Shown here: positions 49,054 to 57,816 of the stretch, piece by piece
Numbering within the stretch: position 1 is the first letter of the stretch
Layout of the letters: every line of letters begins with the position of its first letter
Program-made: the position numbers and the translations under genes
Origin: Notoacmeibacter sp. MSK16QG-6
GTDB taxonomy: Bacteria > Pseudomonadota > Alphaproteobacteria > Rhizobiales > Rhizobiaceae
DNA: 64,000 nucleotides
Direction: 5' to 3'
Assembly: GCF_024158145.1 (NCBI RefSeq)
Contig: NZ_JAMYXM010000001.1
Location: 682,001 to 746,000, forward strand
The notes under the pieces: model-generated
Seen by the model: the letters and a program-made list of their open reading frames with translations, nothing else
Database searches by the model: none
What the model was told of the DNA's origin: nothing

Positions 49054-50226
49054 ATGACAAAGCTACCGGACGATATCGGGATCAATACATTGCTGGCCCA
49101 TGCCGGGCACAACCCCCGGGATTTTCACGGTTTCGTTCAGCCCCCGGTCGTCCATGCCTCGACTGTTCTTTTTCCCGACGCAGAAACCATGCTGGGCCGC
49201 AAGCAGCGCTATACTTACGGCACACGCGGCACGCCCACCACGGATGCGCTGGCGAGCGCCGTGGACGCGCTGGAAGGATCGGCCGGAACAGTTTGCGTAC
49301 CGAGTGGCCTTGCCGCCGTGACGATCCCACTGCTTACATTTCTTTCTGCAGGCGATCACCTTCTCTGTGTCGACAGCGTTTATAATCCCACAAGGCGCTT
49401 TGCCGATGGCCTTCTGACGCGAATGGGGATCGAGACGACCTACTATCCGCCGGAAGTTGGGAAGGCCATAGCGGACTATATGAAGTCGAATACCAAGGTT
49501 GTCTGGACCGAAAGTCCCGGCTCCAACACGTTCGAGATGCAGGACATCCCAGCCATTTGCGAGATCGCGCACGAGCGGAACGCCCTCGTCATGATGGACA
49601 ACACCTGGGCGACGCCGCTCTATTTCAAGCCGCTCGATTTCGGCGTCGATATCTCGGTTCATGCAGCCACCAAATATCCGGGCGGCCATTCGGACGTGCT
49701 GCTCGGCCTCGTCTCGGCTAATGAACAGTGCTGGGAGCAGCTTTACGACACTTTTCTCTGGATGGGCTGCATTGCCGGCCCGGACGATGTCTATCAGGTA
49801 CAACGTGGGTTGAAGACCATGGGTATTCGCCTCGCTCGCCATCAGGAAAGCGCTCTGGAGATCGCCCGCTGGTGTGAAGAGCAGCGGGGTATAGAAGCCG
49901 TGCTGCATCCAGCATTGCAAAGCCATCCGGGGCACGATTTATGGAAGCGGGATTTTTCAGGCTCTTCCGGCCTGTTTTCCATCGTGCTCCAGGGTGAAGG
50001 CCCAAGCGCCGGCGCGGCCTTTCTCGACGCTTTGAAAATCTTCGGTCTCGGCTATAGCTGGGGCGGCCATGAAAGCCTCGCCGTGCTGGTAAATCTGTCC
50101 GATCGAACGGTGACCAAAACCGATTATCGCGGGCCGGTTATCCGGCTCCAGATTGGTCTGGAAGACCCCAAGGATTTGATTGCCGACCTCCAGCGTGGGC
50201 TGGACGCTGTCAGAGCGCTCGGCTGA
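49054..50226 (+). CDS. metC: Cystathionine beta-lyase (Cys/Met metabolism PLP enzyme)
   Basis: PLP enzyme that cleaves cystathionine to homocysteine, pyruvate and ammonia in methionine synthesis. From ATG 49054 (GGAG about nine bases upstream; in-frame TTG 49039 adds five residues) it has 390 aa. The PLP lysine is in SVHAATKYPGGHSDVLLG (about 205), with VWTESPGSNTFEMQDIPAIC and MMDNTWATPLYFKPLDFGVD before it. The C-terminal GYSWGGHESLAVLVN is typical of MetC rather than MetB. Cotranscription with the monooxygenase is possible. Confidence 0.92.
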   Translation: MTKLPDDIGINTLLAHAGHNPRDFHGFVQPPVVHASTVLFPDAETMLGRKQRYTYGTRGTPTTDALASAVDALEGSAGTVCVPSGLAAVTIPLLTFLSAGDHLLCVDSVYNPTRRFADGLLTRMGIETTYYPPEVGKAIADYMKSNTKVVWTESPGSNTFEMQDIPAICEIAHERNALVMMDNTWATPLYFKPLDFGVDISVHAATKYPGGHSDVLLGLVSANEQCWEQLYDTFLWMGCIAGPDDVYQVQRGLKTMGIRLARHQESALEIARWCEEQRGIEAVLHPALQSHPGHDLWKRDFSGSSGLFSIVLQGEGPSAGAAFLDALKIFGLGYSWGGHESLAVLVNLSDRTVTKTDYRGPVIRLQIGLEDPKDLIADLQRGLDAVRALG

Positions 50227-53828: not shown

Positions 53829-54977
53829 ATGGATTTCGATCTCACCGAAGAACAATCGATGCTCAAGGACAGTCTCGACCGACTGCTGTCCGACAAATAC
53901 GGTTTCGAGGATCGCGAAAAGATCCGCAAAGGCGAGCCGGGCTGGTCGAAGGATGTCTGGAGCCAGCTCGCCGAGCTCGGCCTTCTGATGCTGCCCTTCG
54001 CCGAGGAGGACGGCGGTTTCGGCGGCGGGCCGGAAGACGTCATGATCGCCATGGAAAGTCTTGGCGGCGTTCTCTCACTGGAGCCGTTCCTTGCGACAGT
54101 TGTCCTGGCGGGCGGCATGCTGCGCGAAGCAGGCACAGGCGAGCAGCGCGGCGAACTGGTGCCGCGGATCGTCGGCGGTGAACTCATCATGGCGCTGGCG
54201 CATTGCGAGCGCGGGGCGCGCTACACGCTGAGCCATGTCGAAACGACAGCAAAGAAGGACGGTGACAGCTATGTGCTGAACGGCGAGAAGAGTCTTGTCT
54301 TGCATGGCGCCGATGCCGGTAAGTTCATTGTCTCGGCTCGGACCTCCGGCGAGACAGGCGATGAAGACGGTATCAGTCTTTTTCTCGTCGATGCGGACGC
54401 AGACGGCATCTCTCGCCGTGGTTACAGGCTGCAGGACGACCGACCCGCCGCCGAGATCACGCTATCGGACGTTAAAGTGCCGGCTTCGGCGCTTCTGGGC
54501 GAAGAGGGCCAGGGCTACGGCGCTCTTGCAAAGGTGCACGATCAGGCGATTGCTGCTTTGGCCGGCGAGGCGGTTGGCCTTCTGACACGCATTCTGGCGA
54601 CGACCACGCAATATCTGAAGGATCGCAAGCAGTTCGGTGTACCGATCGCGAAGTTCCAAGTCTTGCAGCATGATAGCGTCGACATCTTTATCGCGCTGGA
54701 GCAGATGCGCTCGATTGCGATGTACGCGACGGCGGAAGCCGGCAGTGACGAAGTGGCTGAACGGGCGCGGGCTGCGGCGGCAGCAAAGGTCATGATGGGC
54801 CAGGAGGGACGGAAGGCCGCTGAGACGGCCATCCAGCTCCATGGCGGTGTCGGCGTCACCATGGAATATGCGATCAGCCATTATTTCAAACGCGTGACCG
54901 TCAACGACATGCTGTTCGGCAATGCAGACCACCATATAAGCCGGCTGGCGGAGATGGGATCGCTTCTTGATCCTTAG
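53829..54977 (+). CDS. Acyl-CoA dehydrogenase, small-subunit (PimD) type
   Basis: Second dehydrogenase of the operon, 382 aa. It starts MDFDLTEEQSMLKDSLDRLL and has the middle-domain parts VLNGEKSLVLHGADAGKFIV and GYRLQDDRPAAEITLSDVKV. The C-terminus IQLHGGVGVTMEYAISHYFK carries the family segment, followed by MLFGNADHHISRLAEMGSLL. The first 30 residues resemble the PimD type, and the sequence is more divergent than the 52586 gene, as expected of the partner subunit. GGAGGA is just upstream of the ATG. A strong terminator follows at 55013. Confidence 0.92.
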   Translation: MDFDLTEEQSMLKDSLDRLLSDKYGFEDREKIRKGEPGWSKDVWSQLAELGLLMLPFAEEDGGFGGGPEDVMIAMESLGGVLSLEPFLATVVLAGGMLREAGTGEQRGELVPRIVGGELIMALAHCERGARYTLSHVETTAKKDGDSYVLNGEKSLVLHGADAGKFIVSARTSGETGDEDGISLFLVDADADGISRRGYRLQDDRPAAEITLSDVKVPASALLGEEGQGYGALAKVHDQAIAALAGEAVGLLTRILATTTQYLKDRKQFGVPIAKFQVLQHDSVDIFIALEQMRSIAMYATAEAGSDEVAERARAAAAAKVMMGQEGRKAAETAIQLHGGVGVTMEYAISHYFKRVTVNDMLFGNADHHISRLAEMGSLLDP

Positions 54978-55012
54978 ACGATCGGACCAGACTGGCGGTT
55001 CTGGATTAGCAG

Positions 55013-55041
55013 GCGCGGCTTTTCTGCCGCGCTTTTCTTTT
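55013..55041 (+). terminator. Rho-independent terminator of the beta-oxidation operon
   Basis: GCGCGGC-TTTTCT-GCCGCGC, a perfect 7-bp GC stem, followed by TTTTCTTTT. Closes the operon that starts at 50357. Confidence 0.9.
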
Positions 55042-55084: not shown

Positions 55085-55110
55085 TAACATATAGAAAATT
55101 TCATATGTTA
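55085..55110. promoter_or_regulatory. AT-rich inverted repeat upstream of the YeeE pair
   Basis: TAACATAT-N10-ATATGTTA: perfect 8-bp arms, 23 bp before the first YeeE ATG, with a GAAAATTTC core between. The AT-rich dyad in front of YeeE and BLH-type genes is like operators of the ArsR-type repressor BigR. No ArsR gene is seen nearby. Confidence 0.55.
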
Positions 55111-55132
55111 AAAATTCCAGCAGGGGCAGTCT

Positions 55133-55570
55133 ATGGAATTTATGCCAACGGATTTTACGCCGTGGTTGTCTCTTGGCGGCGGCGTTCTCATCGGTCTATC
55201 CGCCGTCTTTCTCATGGCGTTCAACGGCCGCATTGCCGGGATGACAAGCATCCTCTCCATTCTGGTCAAGCCGCGTGACTGGGCAGACCAGCCATGGAAA
55301 TTCGCCTTTCTCGCAGCGGCTATCGCCGCGCCGCTCGTCCTTTTCATGTCCGGCTACGACATTGCGGTTCAAGTGCCGGCGTCGGCGCCTTTGCTCGTAA
55401 TCGGTGGCTTGCTCGTCGGGATCGGCACGATGCTGGGTAGCGGCTGCACGTCGGGTCATGGCGTCTGCGGCAATGCCCGCCTCTCGCCCCGTTCCATGGC
55501 CGCGACGGCGACGTTTCTCGGCTTCGCGGTCGTAACGGTGTTCATGATACGCCTGATCACGGGAGCTTAA
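55133..55570 (+). CDS. YeeE/YedE family sulfur transporter half (PmpA-like)
   Basis: Half-size membrane protein of 145 aa with four hydrophobic helices from the YeeE/YedE (sulf_transp) family, linked to uptake or exchange of thiosulfate or sulfane sulfur. The Cys motif is GSGCTSGHGVCGNARLSPRS at about 102-121, preceded by LVIGGLLVGIGTMLG. AGGGG lies upstream of the ATG. A second half-transporter starts six bp after the stop, so the pair equals one full YeeE-like unit, as in PmpA/PmpB. Regulated perhaps by the inverted repeat upstream. Confidence 0.88.
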   Translation: MEFMPTDFTPWLSLGGGVLIGLSAVFLMAFNGRIAGMTSILSILVKPRDWADQPWKFAFLAAAIAAPLVLFMSGYDIAVQVPASAPLLVIGGLLVGIGTMLGSGCTSGHGVCGNARLSPRSMAATATFLGFAVVTVFMIRLITGA

Positions 55571-55575
55571 AGATA

Positions 55576-56016
55576 ATGATCCGTCAGATCTTTGCCGGCA
55601 TCATAGCCGGTGTTCTCTTCGGCCTCGGCATCGCACTTTCCGGCATGATCAATCCTGCCAAAGTCATCAGCTTCTTCGACATCGCTGGTGACTGGGATCC
55701 GTCTCTCATCTTTGTCATGGGCGGAGCGTTGGCGACGGCTTTCGTCGGCTACCGTGTGATATTCGGCAATTGGTCGCATCCGGTGTTCGACACAGAATTT
55801 CACCTGCCCGACGCAAAAGCGATCGATACCCGCCTCATAAGCGGCGCAGCCATTTTCGGCGTAGGCTGGGGAATTGCCGGTTTCTGCCCGGGCGGCTCCC
55901 CGCCGGCGGTGCTTCTCAATCCTGCGCCCACCCTTCTTTTTATCGGCTCGCTGCTGGCCGGCAACGTCATTGCGCGCCTGTTCATCGCACCGCGTTTTCA
56001 GGATACGAAGGCTTGA
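55576..56016 (+). CDS. YeeE/YedE family sulfur transporter half (PmpB-like)
   Basis: Second half-transporter of 146 aa with four hydrophobic helices. Typical segments are LFGLGIALSGMINPAKVISF near the N-terminus and GVGWGIAGFCPGGSPPAVLL with the conserved Cys-Pro-Gly at about residue 103. It starts six bp after the first half and is followed by the BLH-type gene after 67 bp, so the three form one operon. The membrane position and sulfur role are inferred from family and neighbours. Confidence 0.88.
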   Translation: MIRQIFAGIIAGVLFGLGIALSGMINPAKVISFFDIAGDWDPSLIFVMGGALATAFVGYRVIFGNWSHPVFDTEFHLPDAKAIDTRLISGAAIFGVGWGIAGFCPGGSPPAVLLNPAPTLLFIGSLLAGNVIARLFIAPRFQDTKA

Positions 56017-56083
56017 GAAGGTTCTGCTGACAGGCGATAAGGTACGGGATCAAACGCGTCTTATCTCCAAGGATCAAGGACAG

Positions 56084-56419
56084 ATGGATCTCCGCTACCT
56101 CACTGAAGATCTGGCCGTTGCGGGCCAGATTTCGCCAAACGATATTCCCGTCATTGCCGGTCAGGGCTTTCGCTCAGTCGTCTGCAACAGGCCGGACAGC
56201 GAGGATGGCGCCGTAGCGCATCAAGAGGTGGAGAGCGCGGCATCGCAAGCCGGCCTGCAGTTTCGTTATATTCCGGTCGTCTCGGGCGGTATCGTCGCCG
56301 ATAATGTCACGGATATGGGCGAAGCGCTGAAAGATCTACCGAAGCCGGTTCTCGCCTACTGCCGATCCGGCGCGCGCTGCACCAATCTCTTCGCACTGAC
56401 CAAGCAGGCCGGCTACTAA
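56084..56419 (+). CDS. BLH-type phosphatase-like protein (DUF442 / TIGR01244 family)
   Basis: Small cytosolic protein of 111 aa, the stand-alone form of the N-terminal domain of beta-lactamase-hydrolase-like (BLH) proteins. It opens MDLRYLTEDLAVAGQISPND and has the dual-specificity-phosphatase-like loop VLAYCRSGARCTNLFAL with Cys and Arg of the C-x5-R motif at about 92-98, plus an extra Cys after it. In Xylella and Agrobacterium BLH proteins act in hydrogen sulfide detoxification under BigR control; here the sulfur dioxygenase domain is missing. AAGGA is before the ATG at 56084; the longer frame upstream overlaps YeeE. Confidence 0.85.
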   Translation: MDLRYLTEDLAVAGQISPNDIPVIAGQGFRSVVCNRPDSEDGAVAHQEVESAASQAGLQFRYIPVVSGGIVADNVTDMGEALKDLPKPVLAYCRSGARCTNLFALTKQAGY

Positions 56420-56493: not shown

Positions 56494-57816
56494 TCAGAAG
56501 ACCCGAAGAAGCCCCAGCGTCAGAATGGGGAAAGCGACGAGTATGACGACCCGGATAAGGTCGGATGCGACGAAGGGCAGCACACCCACGAAAGTCTGAC
56601 GGATCGGGATTTCTCTCTTCGCCATCGAATTGATGATGAAGAGGTTCATGCCGACTGGTGGCGTGATCAGCCCCACCTCCACGACAATCAGCGCCAGAAT
56701 GCCGAACCAGATGGAGAAATCCTCCACACTCATCCCGAAATCGAGTTGCGTCACGATGGGGTAGAAGATCGGGATGGTCAGCAGGATCATGGAAAGCGAG
56801 TCCATGACGCAGCCCATCAGCAGATAGAAGACCAGGATGATGATGAGCACCACCATTGGTGCGAAGCCCTGATCCGTCACCCAGGCAGCCGCCTCCTGAG
56901 GCACCTGCGTAAGCGCCAGGAAGCCGTTGTAGATACCCGCACCGAGCACGATGAGGAAGATCATCGCCGTCGCCGATGCTGTGGCCAGAATGCTTTCGGA
57001 GAAGGTCCGCCAGTTCATTCCGCCATTGAAGAGTGCGATCAGCCCAGTGCCGGCGGCGCCGACGGCCGCGCCTTCCGTCGGCGTAAACCAGCCGCCATAA
57101 ATGCCGCCGACCACCAGAAGGAAAATCACGAGTACGGGCCAGACTTCACCAAGTGCAATGAAGCGCTCACGGTACGAGACTCGGTCGCGCAGGCCCGCGC
57201 TATCTGGCTTCAGCCGCACATAGATGGAGATCGTAATCATGTAGCCGATGGCCGCCAGAATGCCCGGAATAAAGGCTGCCACGAACAGTTTGGCGATGTT
57301 CTGCTCTGTCAGAATGGCGTAGATGACGAGGATAACGGAGGGCGGGATAAGAATGCCGAGCGTACCGCCTGCCGCGAGTGTGCCGGACGCCAGTGCGCCG
57401 CTATAGCCATAGCGGCGCAGTTCCGGCAGTGCGACCTGTCCCATGGTCGCGGCAGTGGCCAGAGATGATCCGCAGATCGCTCCGAAGCCGGCGCAGGCGC
57501 CGACAGCAGCCATTGCGACGCCGCCCTTGCGATGACCGAGCCAGACCTCGGCGGATTTGAACAGGCTCTGGCTCATGCCGCCCAGCGTGGCGAATTGGCC
57601 CATGAGCAGAAAAAGCGGGACAATGGACAGCGAGTAGGAGGAGAAGGTGGTGTAGGTCTCGCTCTTCAGCTTGGCGAGGATCATGAGGGTCGATCCGCCG
57701 ACCATCCACGAGCCGCAGAAACCGACGACCAGCATGGCCAGGCCGATCGGCATACGCAGGAAAATCAGAAGCAGAAGAACCGGAAACGACCAAAGGCCGA
57801 GTTCGAGATTTGTCAA
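56494..57816 (-). CDS. dctM: TRAP transporter large permease (DctM)
   Basis: Large membrane subunit of a TRAP transporter, 440 aa with about twelve helices, which moves a carboxylate or related solute with Na+. Family segments are FLLMGQFATLGGMSQSLFKS near 75, GGTLGILIPPSVILVIYAIL near 155, the central FTPTEGAAVGAAGTGLIALF and VGLITPPVGMNLFIINSMAK near 385. The start overlaps the dctQ stop by four bases (ATGA). Substrate unknown from sequence. Confidence 0.94.
   Translation of the reverse strand: MTNLELGLWSFPVLLLLIFLRMPIGLAMLVVGFCGSWMVGGSTLMILAKLKSETYTTFSSYSLSIVPLFLLMGQFATLGGMSQSLFKSAEVWLGHRKGGVAMAAVGACAGFGAICGSSLATAATMGQVALPELRRYGYSGALASGTLAAGGTLGILIPPSVILVIYAILTEQNIAKLFVAAFIPGILAAIGYMITISIYVRLKPDSAGLRDRVSYRERFIALGEVWPVLVIFLLVVGGIYGGWFTPTEGAAVGAAGTGLIALFNGGMNWRTFSESILATASATAMIFLIVLGAGIYNGFLALTQVPQEAAAWVTDQGFAPMVVLIIILVFYLLMGCVMDSLSMILLTIPIFYPIVTQLDFGMSVEDFSIWFGILALIVVEVGLITPPVGMNLFIINSMAKREIPIRQTFVGVLPFVASDLIRVVILVAFPILTLGLLRVF

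Follow-up and report, generated by a model that had tools for sequence, protein, structure and literature searches.

The window analysed here, the whole 64,000-nt stretch, comes from Notoacmeibacter sp. MSK16QG-6, whose genome (G000) measures 3.54 Mb. Toward its right end, three short plus-strand genes, two encoding half-transporters and one a sulfur transferase, follow a palindromic dyad and are followed in turn by a convergent TRAP transporter gene. The features of the locus are:

53829..54977, plus strand: acyl-CoA dehydrogenase gene (pimD-like), left flank kept in relatives, outside the cassette; profile match
55011..55034, plus strand: terminator-like stem-loop with a T-rich tail, 3' of the acyl-CoA dehydrogenase gene; pattern match
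55085..55110, no strand: putative ArsR-family operator, dyad TAACATAT-N10-ATATGTTA; exact match, like the dyad at the dioxygenase/SulP promoter
55133..55570, plus strand: pmpA-like gene (Y1), YeeE/YedE C-terminal half with GCTSGHGVCG; Pfam and motif alignment
55576..56016, plus strand: pmpB-like gene (Y2), YeeE/YedE N-terminal half, DUF6691, with GFCPG; Pfam, N-terminal assignment after the description in PMC11582611
56084..56419, plus strand: stand-alone BLH/DUF442 sulfur transferase gene (TIGR01244) with a CRSGARC loop; Pfam and TIGR profiles
56494..57816, minus strand: TRAP transporter large permease gene (DctM), right flank kept in relatives, outside the cassette; profile match

A bigR operon combines an adjacent cysteine-pair ArsR with a linked dioxygenase. 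The cassette has neither: the 155-nt gap between the acyl-CoA dehydrogenase gene and pmpA holds no arsR, and the BLH gene is followed directly by the DctM gene. A consensus sigma-70 promoter was looked for at the cassette and none was found. The hairpin at 55011-55034 may form the boundary between the cassette and the upstream operon; two terminator-like patterns were counted in the sequence against 1.6 expected from shuffles, which lends it weak support.

Profile searches identify the first two products as half-transporters. Y1 (145 aa) matches the Pfam Sulf_transp profile weakly, at 23.8 bits (cut-off 27), over positions 176-305 of 310, which is the C-terminal half, and also matches the C-terminal part of the solved YeeE-type transporter 6leo (residues 270-317, E 0.0014). 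Y2 (146 aa) matches DUF6691 at 126.9 bits (cut-off 27); a PDB profile search with Y2 returned nothing up to E=1, and an AlphaFold model, made for Y2 only, had a mean pLDDT of 58 and was too poor for a structure search. The Y1 cysteines C105 and C112 lie within GCTSGHGVCG, a motif invariant as GCTSGHG(V/I)CG in 11/11 aligned sequences, and C104 of Y2 lies within GFCPG, invariant in 14/14. The original prediction of two YeeE halves, each with its own cysteine motif, is thus confirmed, while its four helices per half agree only roughly with a simple hydropathy scan, which gives five segments in each, two of them overlapping.

At 145 and 146 aa, neither protein is a full-length YeeE/SoxT, described in PMC11582611 as a single chain of 330-350 aa with nine helices; the genome encodes a separate full-length YeeE-type member on C12 (361 aa, 170.3 bits). 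The half-YeeE match, the cysteine motif, the neighbouring genes and the length of about 130-146 aa are all as in PmpA/PmpB (YedE1/YedE2), and the data fit a reading of Y1 as a putative PmpA (C-terminal half) and Y2 as a putative PmpB (N-terminal half) in the sense of PMC11582611, which also describes the two half-transporters of Serratia pmpAB. Cupriavidus pinatubonensis YedE1E2 likewise comprises two short neighbouring YeeE-type proteins with one conserved cysteine motif each, and for it zero-valent sulfur uptake is reported to need both halves and both conserved cysteines (PMC10812762); transport by Y1 and Y2 is putative.

The third gene had been predicted to encode a 111-aa stand-alone BLH phosphatase domain with a CRSGARC loop, and both profiles agree. 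The protein scores 99.6 bits on BLH_phosphatase (cut-off 26.1) and 105.7 bits on the TIGR01244 sulfur transferase model (cut-off 85.85), with the CxxGxR loop present, and its gene is the genome's single PF04273 match. It is not a bifunctional Blh, in which the transferase (ST) and an ETHE1-like sulfur dioxygenase (SDO) share one chain, since it covers only positions 3-105 of the 423 of that model, at 72.8 bits (cut-off 625); a family relative, L065, encodes the fused version (722.9 bits against the same cut-off). Its cysteines are C93 and C99, both in CRSGARC, and C34. Cys93, Gly96 and Arg98 are invariant in 12/12 aligned sequences, and Cys93 is the expected catalytic residue. The DUF442 domain of C. 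pinatubonensis SQR is homologous, with Cys94 reported as essential, and that domain and PDB 2f46 (from Neisseria according to PMC6441731) have the domain type, a catalytic loop cysteine and the extra Cys34 in common with the window protein (PMC6441731). What sets the latter apart from other DUF442/TIGR01244 proteins is its pairing with pmpAB and the lack of a linked dioxygenase.

To place the cassette in an evolutionary context, 121 loci were compared, a number that includes duplicate records (e.g. L047/L202, L055/L240 and L049/L210). Relatives were the best 80 of 581, and their genes were called with a home-made codon-usage finder and phmmer using our own seed proteins. Four loci (L050, L051, L053 and L199, the last from Nitratireductor arenosus) hold a full cluster, arsR<->pmpA-pmpB-dioxygenase-BLH-SulP, between the same acyl-CoA dehydrogenase and TRAP flanks, and L213 shows the same order as far as its contig end. 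The dioxygenase of these clusters has a metallo-beta-lactamase fold. Because four loci carry the full set between the same two flanks, the view of the cassette as a reduced unit, already proposed in the original prediction, is supported.

The reduction is shared by the genus. All three genomes compared (the window, L044 of G002 and L045 of G001) have pmpA-pmpB-BLH alone at the site, with arsR, the dioxygenase gene and SulP absent from it in each. Only these three genes are present in L200 as well, and in L197, where the left flank is not nearby; in the Mesorhizobium loci L188, L194 and L208 they lie beside different neighbours. Altogether 9/121 loci carry Y1-Y2-BLH without a linked dioxygenase, namely the window and these seven others together with L046, in which a contig end cuts the locus and leaves only Y2-BLH visible. 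As variants recur among the loci compared, gene content is fluid, and the reduced cassette of the window is one of several. A different reduction of the same island is seen in G035 (L165, 4883-6164), where the dioxygenase and BLH genes are retained and pmpAB, arsR and SulP are absent; a search of the whole G035 genome gave no Y2 match. In G001 (L045, 4900-6500), both pmpA and pmpB have a frame break close to the cysteine motif, through decay or assembly error, so the cassette may be decaying there.

The dyad ahead of the first gene, TAACATATAGAAAATTTCATATGTTA, is exact at 55085-55110 as originally described, with 22 nt between its end and the ATG (55133) instead of the 23 given. With up to 3 mismatches allowed, nothing else in the window matches (mean 0.02 in 100 shuffles, matches in two), and with up to 2 no other place in the 3.54-Mb genome does. 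A strict pattern, ACATAT-N10..12-ATATGT, was then scanned with its reversal as control. It occurs at three places in the 3.54 Mb: at the cassette, in the gap between a dioxygenase gene and a SulP permease gene, and once at C8:294,108. This third site falls within a coding sequence predicted on the reverse strand and was taken as chance. By chance ~0.3 per genome would be expected, as estimated with a third-order Markov model (173 kb of genome sequence for training; 2 hits in 24 Mb). Whole-genome scans found the strict dyad once in G002, at the dioxygenase/SulP gap, and not at all in G001; the reversed control gave no match in G000, G001 or G002.

Genome searches recovered a candidate partner of the transferase at this second site. 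The original prediction had suggested looking for a separate dioxygenase, and a search with the dioxygenase of the full cluster L051 found one: a stand-alone gene at C7:172,874-173,758 with 47% identity, plus three weaker matches. The statement that repressor and dioxygenase are missing is thus correct for the cassette locus and incorrect, as regards a dioxygenase of this kind, for the genome. The gene lies 563 kb from the cassette and is divergent from the neighbouring SulP permease gene; its product matches the Blh model at 552.6 bits over positions 141-423 only, which is the dioxygenase part. Its best relatives share 70-91% identity, 91% being to G002 and 70-77% to matches in G001, G004, G013, G019, G025, G026, G030, G032, G033 and G034, including the dioxygenase domain of a fused Blh in G026 (73%). 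Against the dioxygenases of four full clusters (G009, G023, G027 and G065), identity is 46-50%. With its Blh lineage and this low identity, it is a different gene, and the possibility that it is the cluster gene moved elsewhere is ruled out.

The same dioxygenase/SulP pair is found in G002, and G001 has the dioxygenase gene, with no SulP in the surrounding 10-kb stretch. The gap between the pair contains TTTACATATTCATATGTTCATATATGTTC in the window genome and TTTACATATTCATTTTTCTATATATGTTC in G002. Compared with the cassette dyad, the spacer is 12 instead of 10 and the inner sequence differs. Dyads of the same kind therefore stand ahead of both gene sets, as a common operator would in a BigR/SqrR-type regulon.

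Looser patterns were examined for conservation across genomes; the loose pattern (ATAT-N8..14-ATAT) and the five comparison cassettes were picked after inspection. It is present at 3/3 pmpA promoters and 3/3 dioxygenase promoters of the genus, the start of G002 pmpA being set by alignment with the window protein because the gene finder's start fell inside the dyad. The letters of the pmpA dyads have diverged among the three members, and one site lies in very AT-rich DNA. Beyond the genus, the pattern was found in 4/5 full clusters with a divergent arsR, L213 being off by one letter, and in 0/5 reduced cassettes of other genera. The expectation that the dyad would be conserved upstream of orthologous cassettes thus holds within the genus, with diverged letters, and fails for the reduced cassettes outside it. 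As background, loose matches occur in 9/580 overlapping window tiles, two of them covering the 55085-55110 site; a further 109 kb from elsewhere in the genome has nine matching start positions, one being the dioxygenase/SulP site. An intermediate form, CATAT-N8..14-ATATGWW, matches at seven genomic positions (control: one), two of which are the cassette and dioxygenase/SulP sites; another, C7:180,347, is inside a predicted coding sequence. Also among the seven is an intergenic dyad at C8:600.5 kb (L092, 6509-6540), flanked by a cold-shock gene and a gene for a 160-aa protein. Because loose forms turn up at other places in window and genome alike, only the strict dyad discriminates.

Four of the five reduced non-genus cassettes were also searched as genomes (G061-G064), along with two unreduced genomes. 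A Blh-lineage dioxygenase is encoded elsewhere in G061 (71%) and G063 (67%) and a cluster-type dioxygenase elsewhere in G064 (47%); the search of G062 gave no dioxygenase at the cut-off. No loose dyad was found before the starts of the three dioxygenase genes of G061, G063 and G064; one match in L276 lies downstream of the dioxygenase gene. The split between transferase and dioxygenase is therefore recurrent in other genomes; the window's genus was the only one seen to have a dyad at each of the two places. In G064 the dioxygenase gene belongs to a dioxygenase-BLH-SulP set apart from the pmpAB-BLH cassette of that genome, and is preceded by an AT-rich stretch with ATAT repeats (L279, about 1430-1480) that misses the loose pattern and is possibly a degenerate operator.

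Together, the gene content and the matching dyads suggest that the cassette and the distant dioxygenase/SulP pair probably form a two-locus, co-regulated system for sulfane sulfur, whichever protein binds. By analogy with the families involved, PmpA and PmpB would import zero-valent sulfur or polysulfide and pass the sulfur to glutathione, BLH would exchange sulfane sulfur among glutathione persulfide, thiosulfate and sulfite, the dioxygenase at the distant locus would oxidise glutathione persulfide to sulfite, and transport of that oxyanion may fall to SulP. A single ArsR-type repressor with its gene elsewhere would bind both dyads and be released when persulfide bridges its cysteine pair; with one repressor on both, the two halves would be induced together. 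Separate encoding need not abolish function, since in Blh each of the two domains, ST and SDO, is reported to retain activity after separate purification, and adding the SDO domain increased O2 uptake (PMC5823870). The original prediction, a reduced sulfide or persulfide response unit under a regulator located elsewhere, is largely right in form: the same-kind dyad between a stand-alone Blh-type dioxygenase gene and SulP 563 kb away supports it indirectly. It needs correcting on two points: a dioxygenase of this kind is encoded in the genome, and the likely regulon extends over both loci.

Persulfide dioxygenases and BLH-type sulfur transferases are familiar mainly as a single fused enzyme or from a single operon. 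The bigR operons of Agrobacterium and Xylella draw on the same families, a BigR/SqrR-group ArsR, a BLH transferase, a dioxygenase and half-transporters, as described in PMC5823870 and PMC10812762, whereas here ST and SDO are separate proteins encoded 563 kb apart with no adjacent repressor gene. The yeeE-yedE-pdo2 genes of Acinetobacter baumannii, under BigR, similarly comprise two half-transporters and a persulfide dioxygenase with a dithiol ArsR repressor; the window differs from that description in linking a transferase in place of the dioxygenase, and again in having no adjacent repressor gene (PMC7315123). All parts belong to known families, and what is new is the two-locus layout under a shared dyad. 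In the titles and abstract openings of the open-access literature, no description of a split transferase/dioxygenase arrangement was found, and a search of open-access literature for orphan operators of the same kind found no relevant paper. The genome comparison suggests that transferase and dioxygenase came apart, that the dioxygenase is of another lineage, and that both are maybe under a common operator though the local repressor gene is gone. If so, the genus offers a small, clean system for following how a persulfide regulon survives rearrangement and sensor exchange. By neighbourhood alone the cassette had been called an orphan, and the partner locus was missed.

The search for bigR/sqrR that the original prediction had proposed yielded 11 ArsR-type matches in the genome, eight of which (all except L010, L011 and L013) were inspected for cysteines. 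Three carry BigR-like cysteines: one adjacent to sox genes (C12:141 kb), one at C8:486.5 kb, and one at C8:654.4 kb beside a SpoU-type methylase gene. The term BigR-like, taken over from that prediction, is loose. The repressor of the full cluster L051 reaches 86 bits on the BigR model (cut-off 155) and is thus a BigR/SqrR relative, not BigR itself, and the methylase-adjacent ArsR (104 aa; nearest solved relatives NolR and HlyU) scores 71.1 bits on the BigR equivalog NF040642 (cut-off 155).

Read by eye, the likely recognition helix of the methylase-adjacent ArsR, SQSALSQHLSKLR, is the closest of the three candidates to that of the cluster ArsR, SQSALSQQLSKLR. Two cysteines are present in 3/3 genus members, one at the BigR position and the second near the C-terminus, one residue off the usual position as counted by eye. 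Its best matches outside the genus share 53-61% (G005, G021, G023, G027 and G033), against 43-55% for the divergent cluster repressors. No dyad was found at its own promoter in G000, G001 or G002. In G023, G027 and G033, the ArsR encoded closest to the methylase gene lacks the cysteine pair; orthology is not certain for G023, because its arsR and methylase gene are about 2.5 kb apart. G023 and G027 retain the cluster arsR as well, and since they carry both, it is ruled out that the methylase-adjacent gene is the cluster arsR relocated. An ArsR tree, in which branches were long and 11 of the 38 forks open, grouped the methylase-adjacent ArsR proteins weakly. We regard this protein as the leading candidate repressor for both dyads, at a low level of confidence. 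It is correspondingly doubtful, though conceivable, that after loss of the cluster arsR this paralogous ArsR took over both dyads. Such a replacement, if true, would mean that the persulfide sensor was swapped with the operator and regulon retained, holding together a transferase and a dioxygenase from different lineages.

Regulation of both loci by another protein is compatible with the two-locus reading, differing only in the identity of the repressor, and is a real possibility, if short of an even chance. It could be the sox-adjacent or the C8:486.5-kb ArsR, another BigR/SqrR/SoxR relative, or a protein not considered here. In both named ArsR the two cysteines are spaced as usual, the latter protein being read from its G001 and G002 copies, and in Hyphomicrobium SoxR and sHdrR are reported to bind several promoters (PMC10451225, PMC12423496). 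Against this, their likely recognition helices (PQATVSQHLARLR and PQAAVSQQLARLR, by eye) differ from SQSALSQQLSKLR of the cluster ArsR, to which SQSALSQHLSKLR of the methylase-adjacent protein comes closer, and the reading frame of the C8:486.5-kb gene is broken in the window genome. There (L090, 8463-8693), this SqrR/BigR-like arsR is frameshifted by a short tandem duplication, beside the gene for a 355-aa metallo-hydrolase; in G002 (L174) and G001 (L177) its reading frame is open.

Less likely is a relic operator, in which the dyad would be the leftover site of the lost local repressor, unbound here, with the cassette expressed constitutively and the likeness to the dioxygenase/SulP site due to AT-rich promoter sequence. 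The absence of the cluster arsR, the variable dyad letters among the three genus members and the frame breaks in both G001 half-transporter genes would suit it, as would the five non-genus reduced cassettes, which presumably manage without a dyad. However, the strict dyad is perfect here, and the only other promoter to carry it is the one of the functionally matching dioxygenase gene, against ~0.3 expected. That promoter serves a dioxygenase of another lineage, so its dyad is no remnant of the lost cluster.

An ordinary operon for housekeeping sulfur trafficking, read from an unrelated local promoter with the dyad a chance or structural AT-rich palindrome, would agree with loose dyads elsewhere in window and genome and with H. 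denitrificans pmpA and pmpB, reported as not responding to thiosulfate (PMC11582611), but is improbable given a chance expectation of 0.02 per window even at 3 mismatches and a position close before the start codon that dyads of this kind also occupy within the genus and in relatives whose arsR is divergent.

Against the two-locus system itself count the unequal spacers and inner letters of the two dyads, the lack of the strict dyad in G001 and at the G002 cassette, the low specificity of the looser patterns, the G001 frame breaks and the thiosulfate result for H. denitrificans. Two further loci may concern sulfur metabolism. On C12 (L091, 6804-16604), a sox-type cluster with SoxY and SoxZ by Pfam also includes an ArsR of its own and the 361-aa full-length YeeE-type protein; the organism may be capable of Sox-type thiosulfate oxidation. 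Within the window, a few kb upstream of the cassette, a plus-strand gene at 49054-50226 encodes a Cys/Met metabolism PLP enzyme (PF01053, 353 bits), perhaps a cystathionine beta-lyase and hence a possible source of sulfide.
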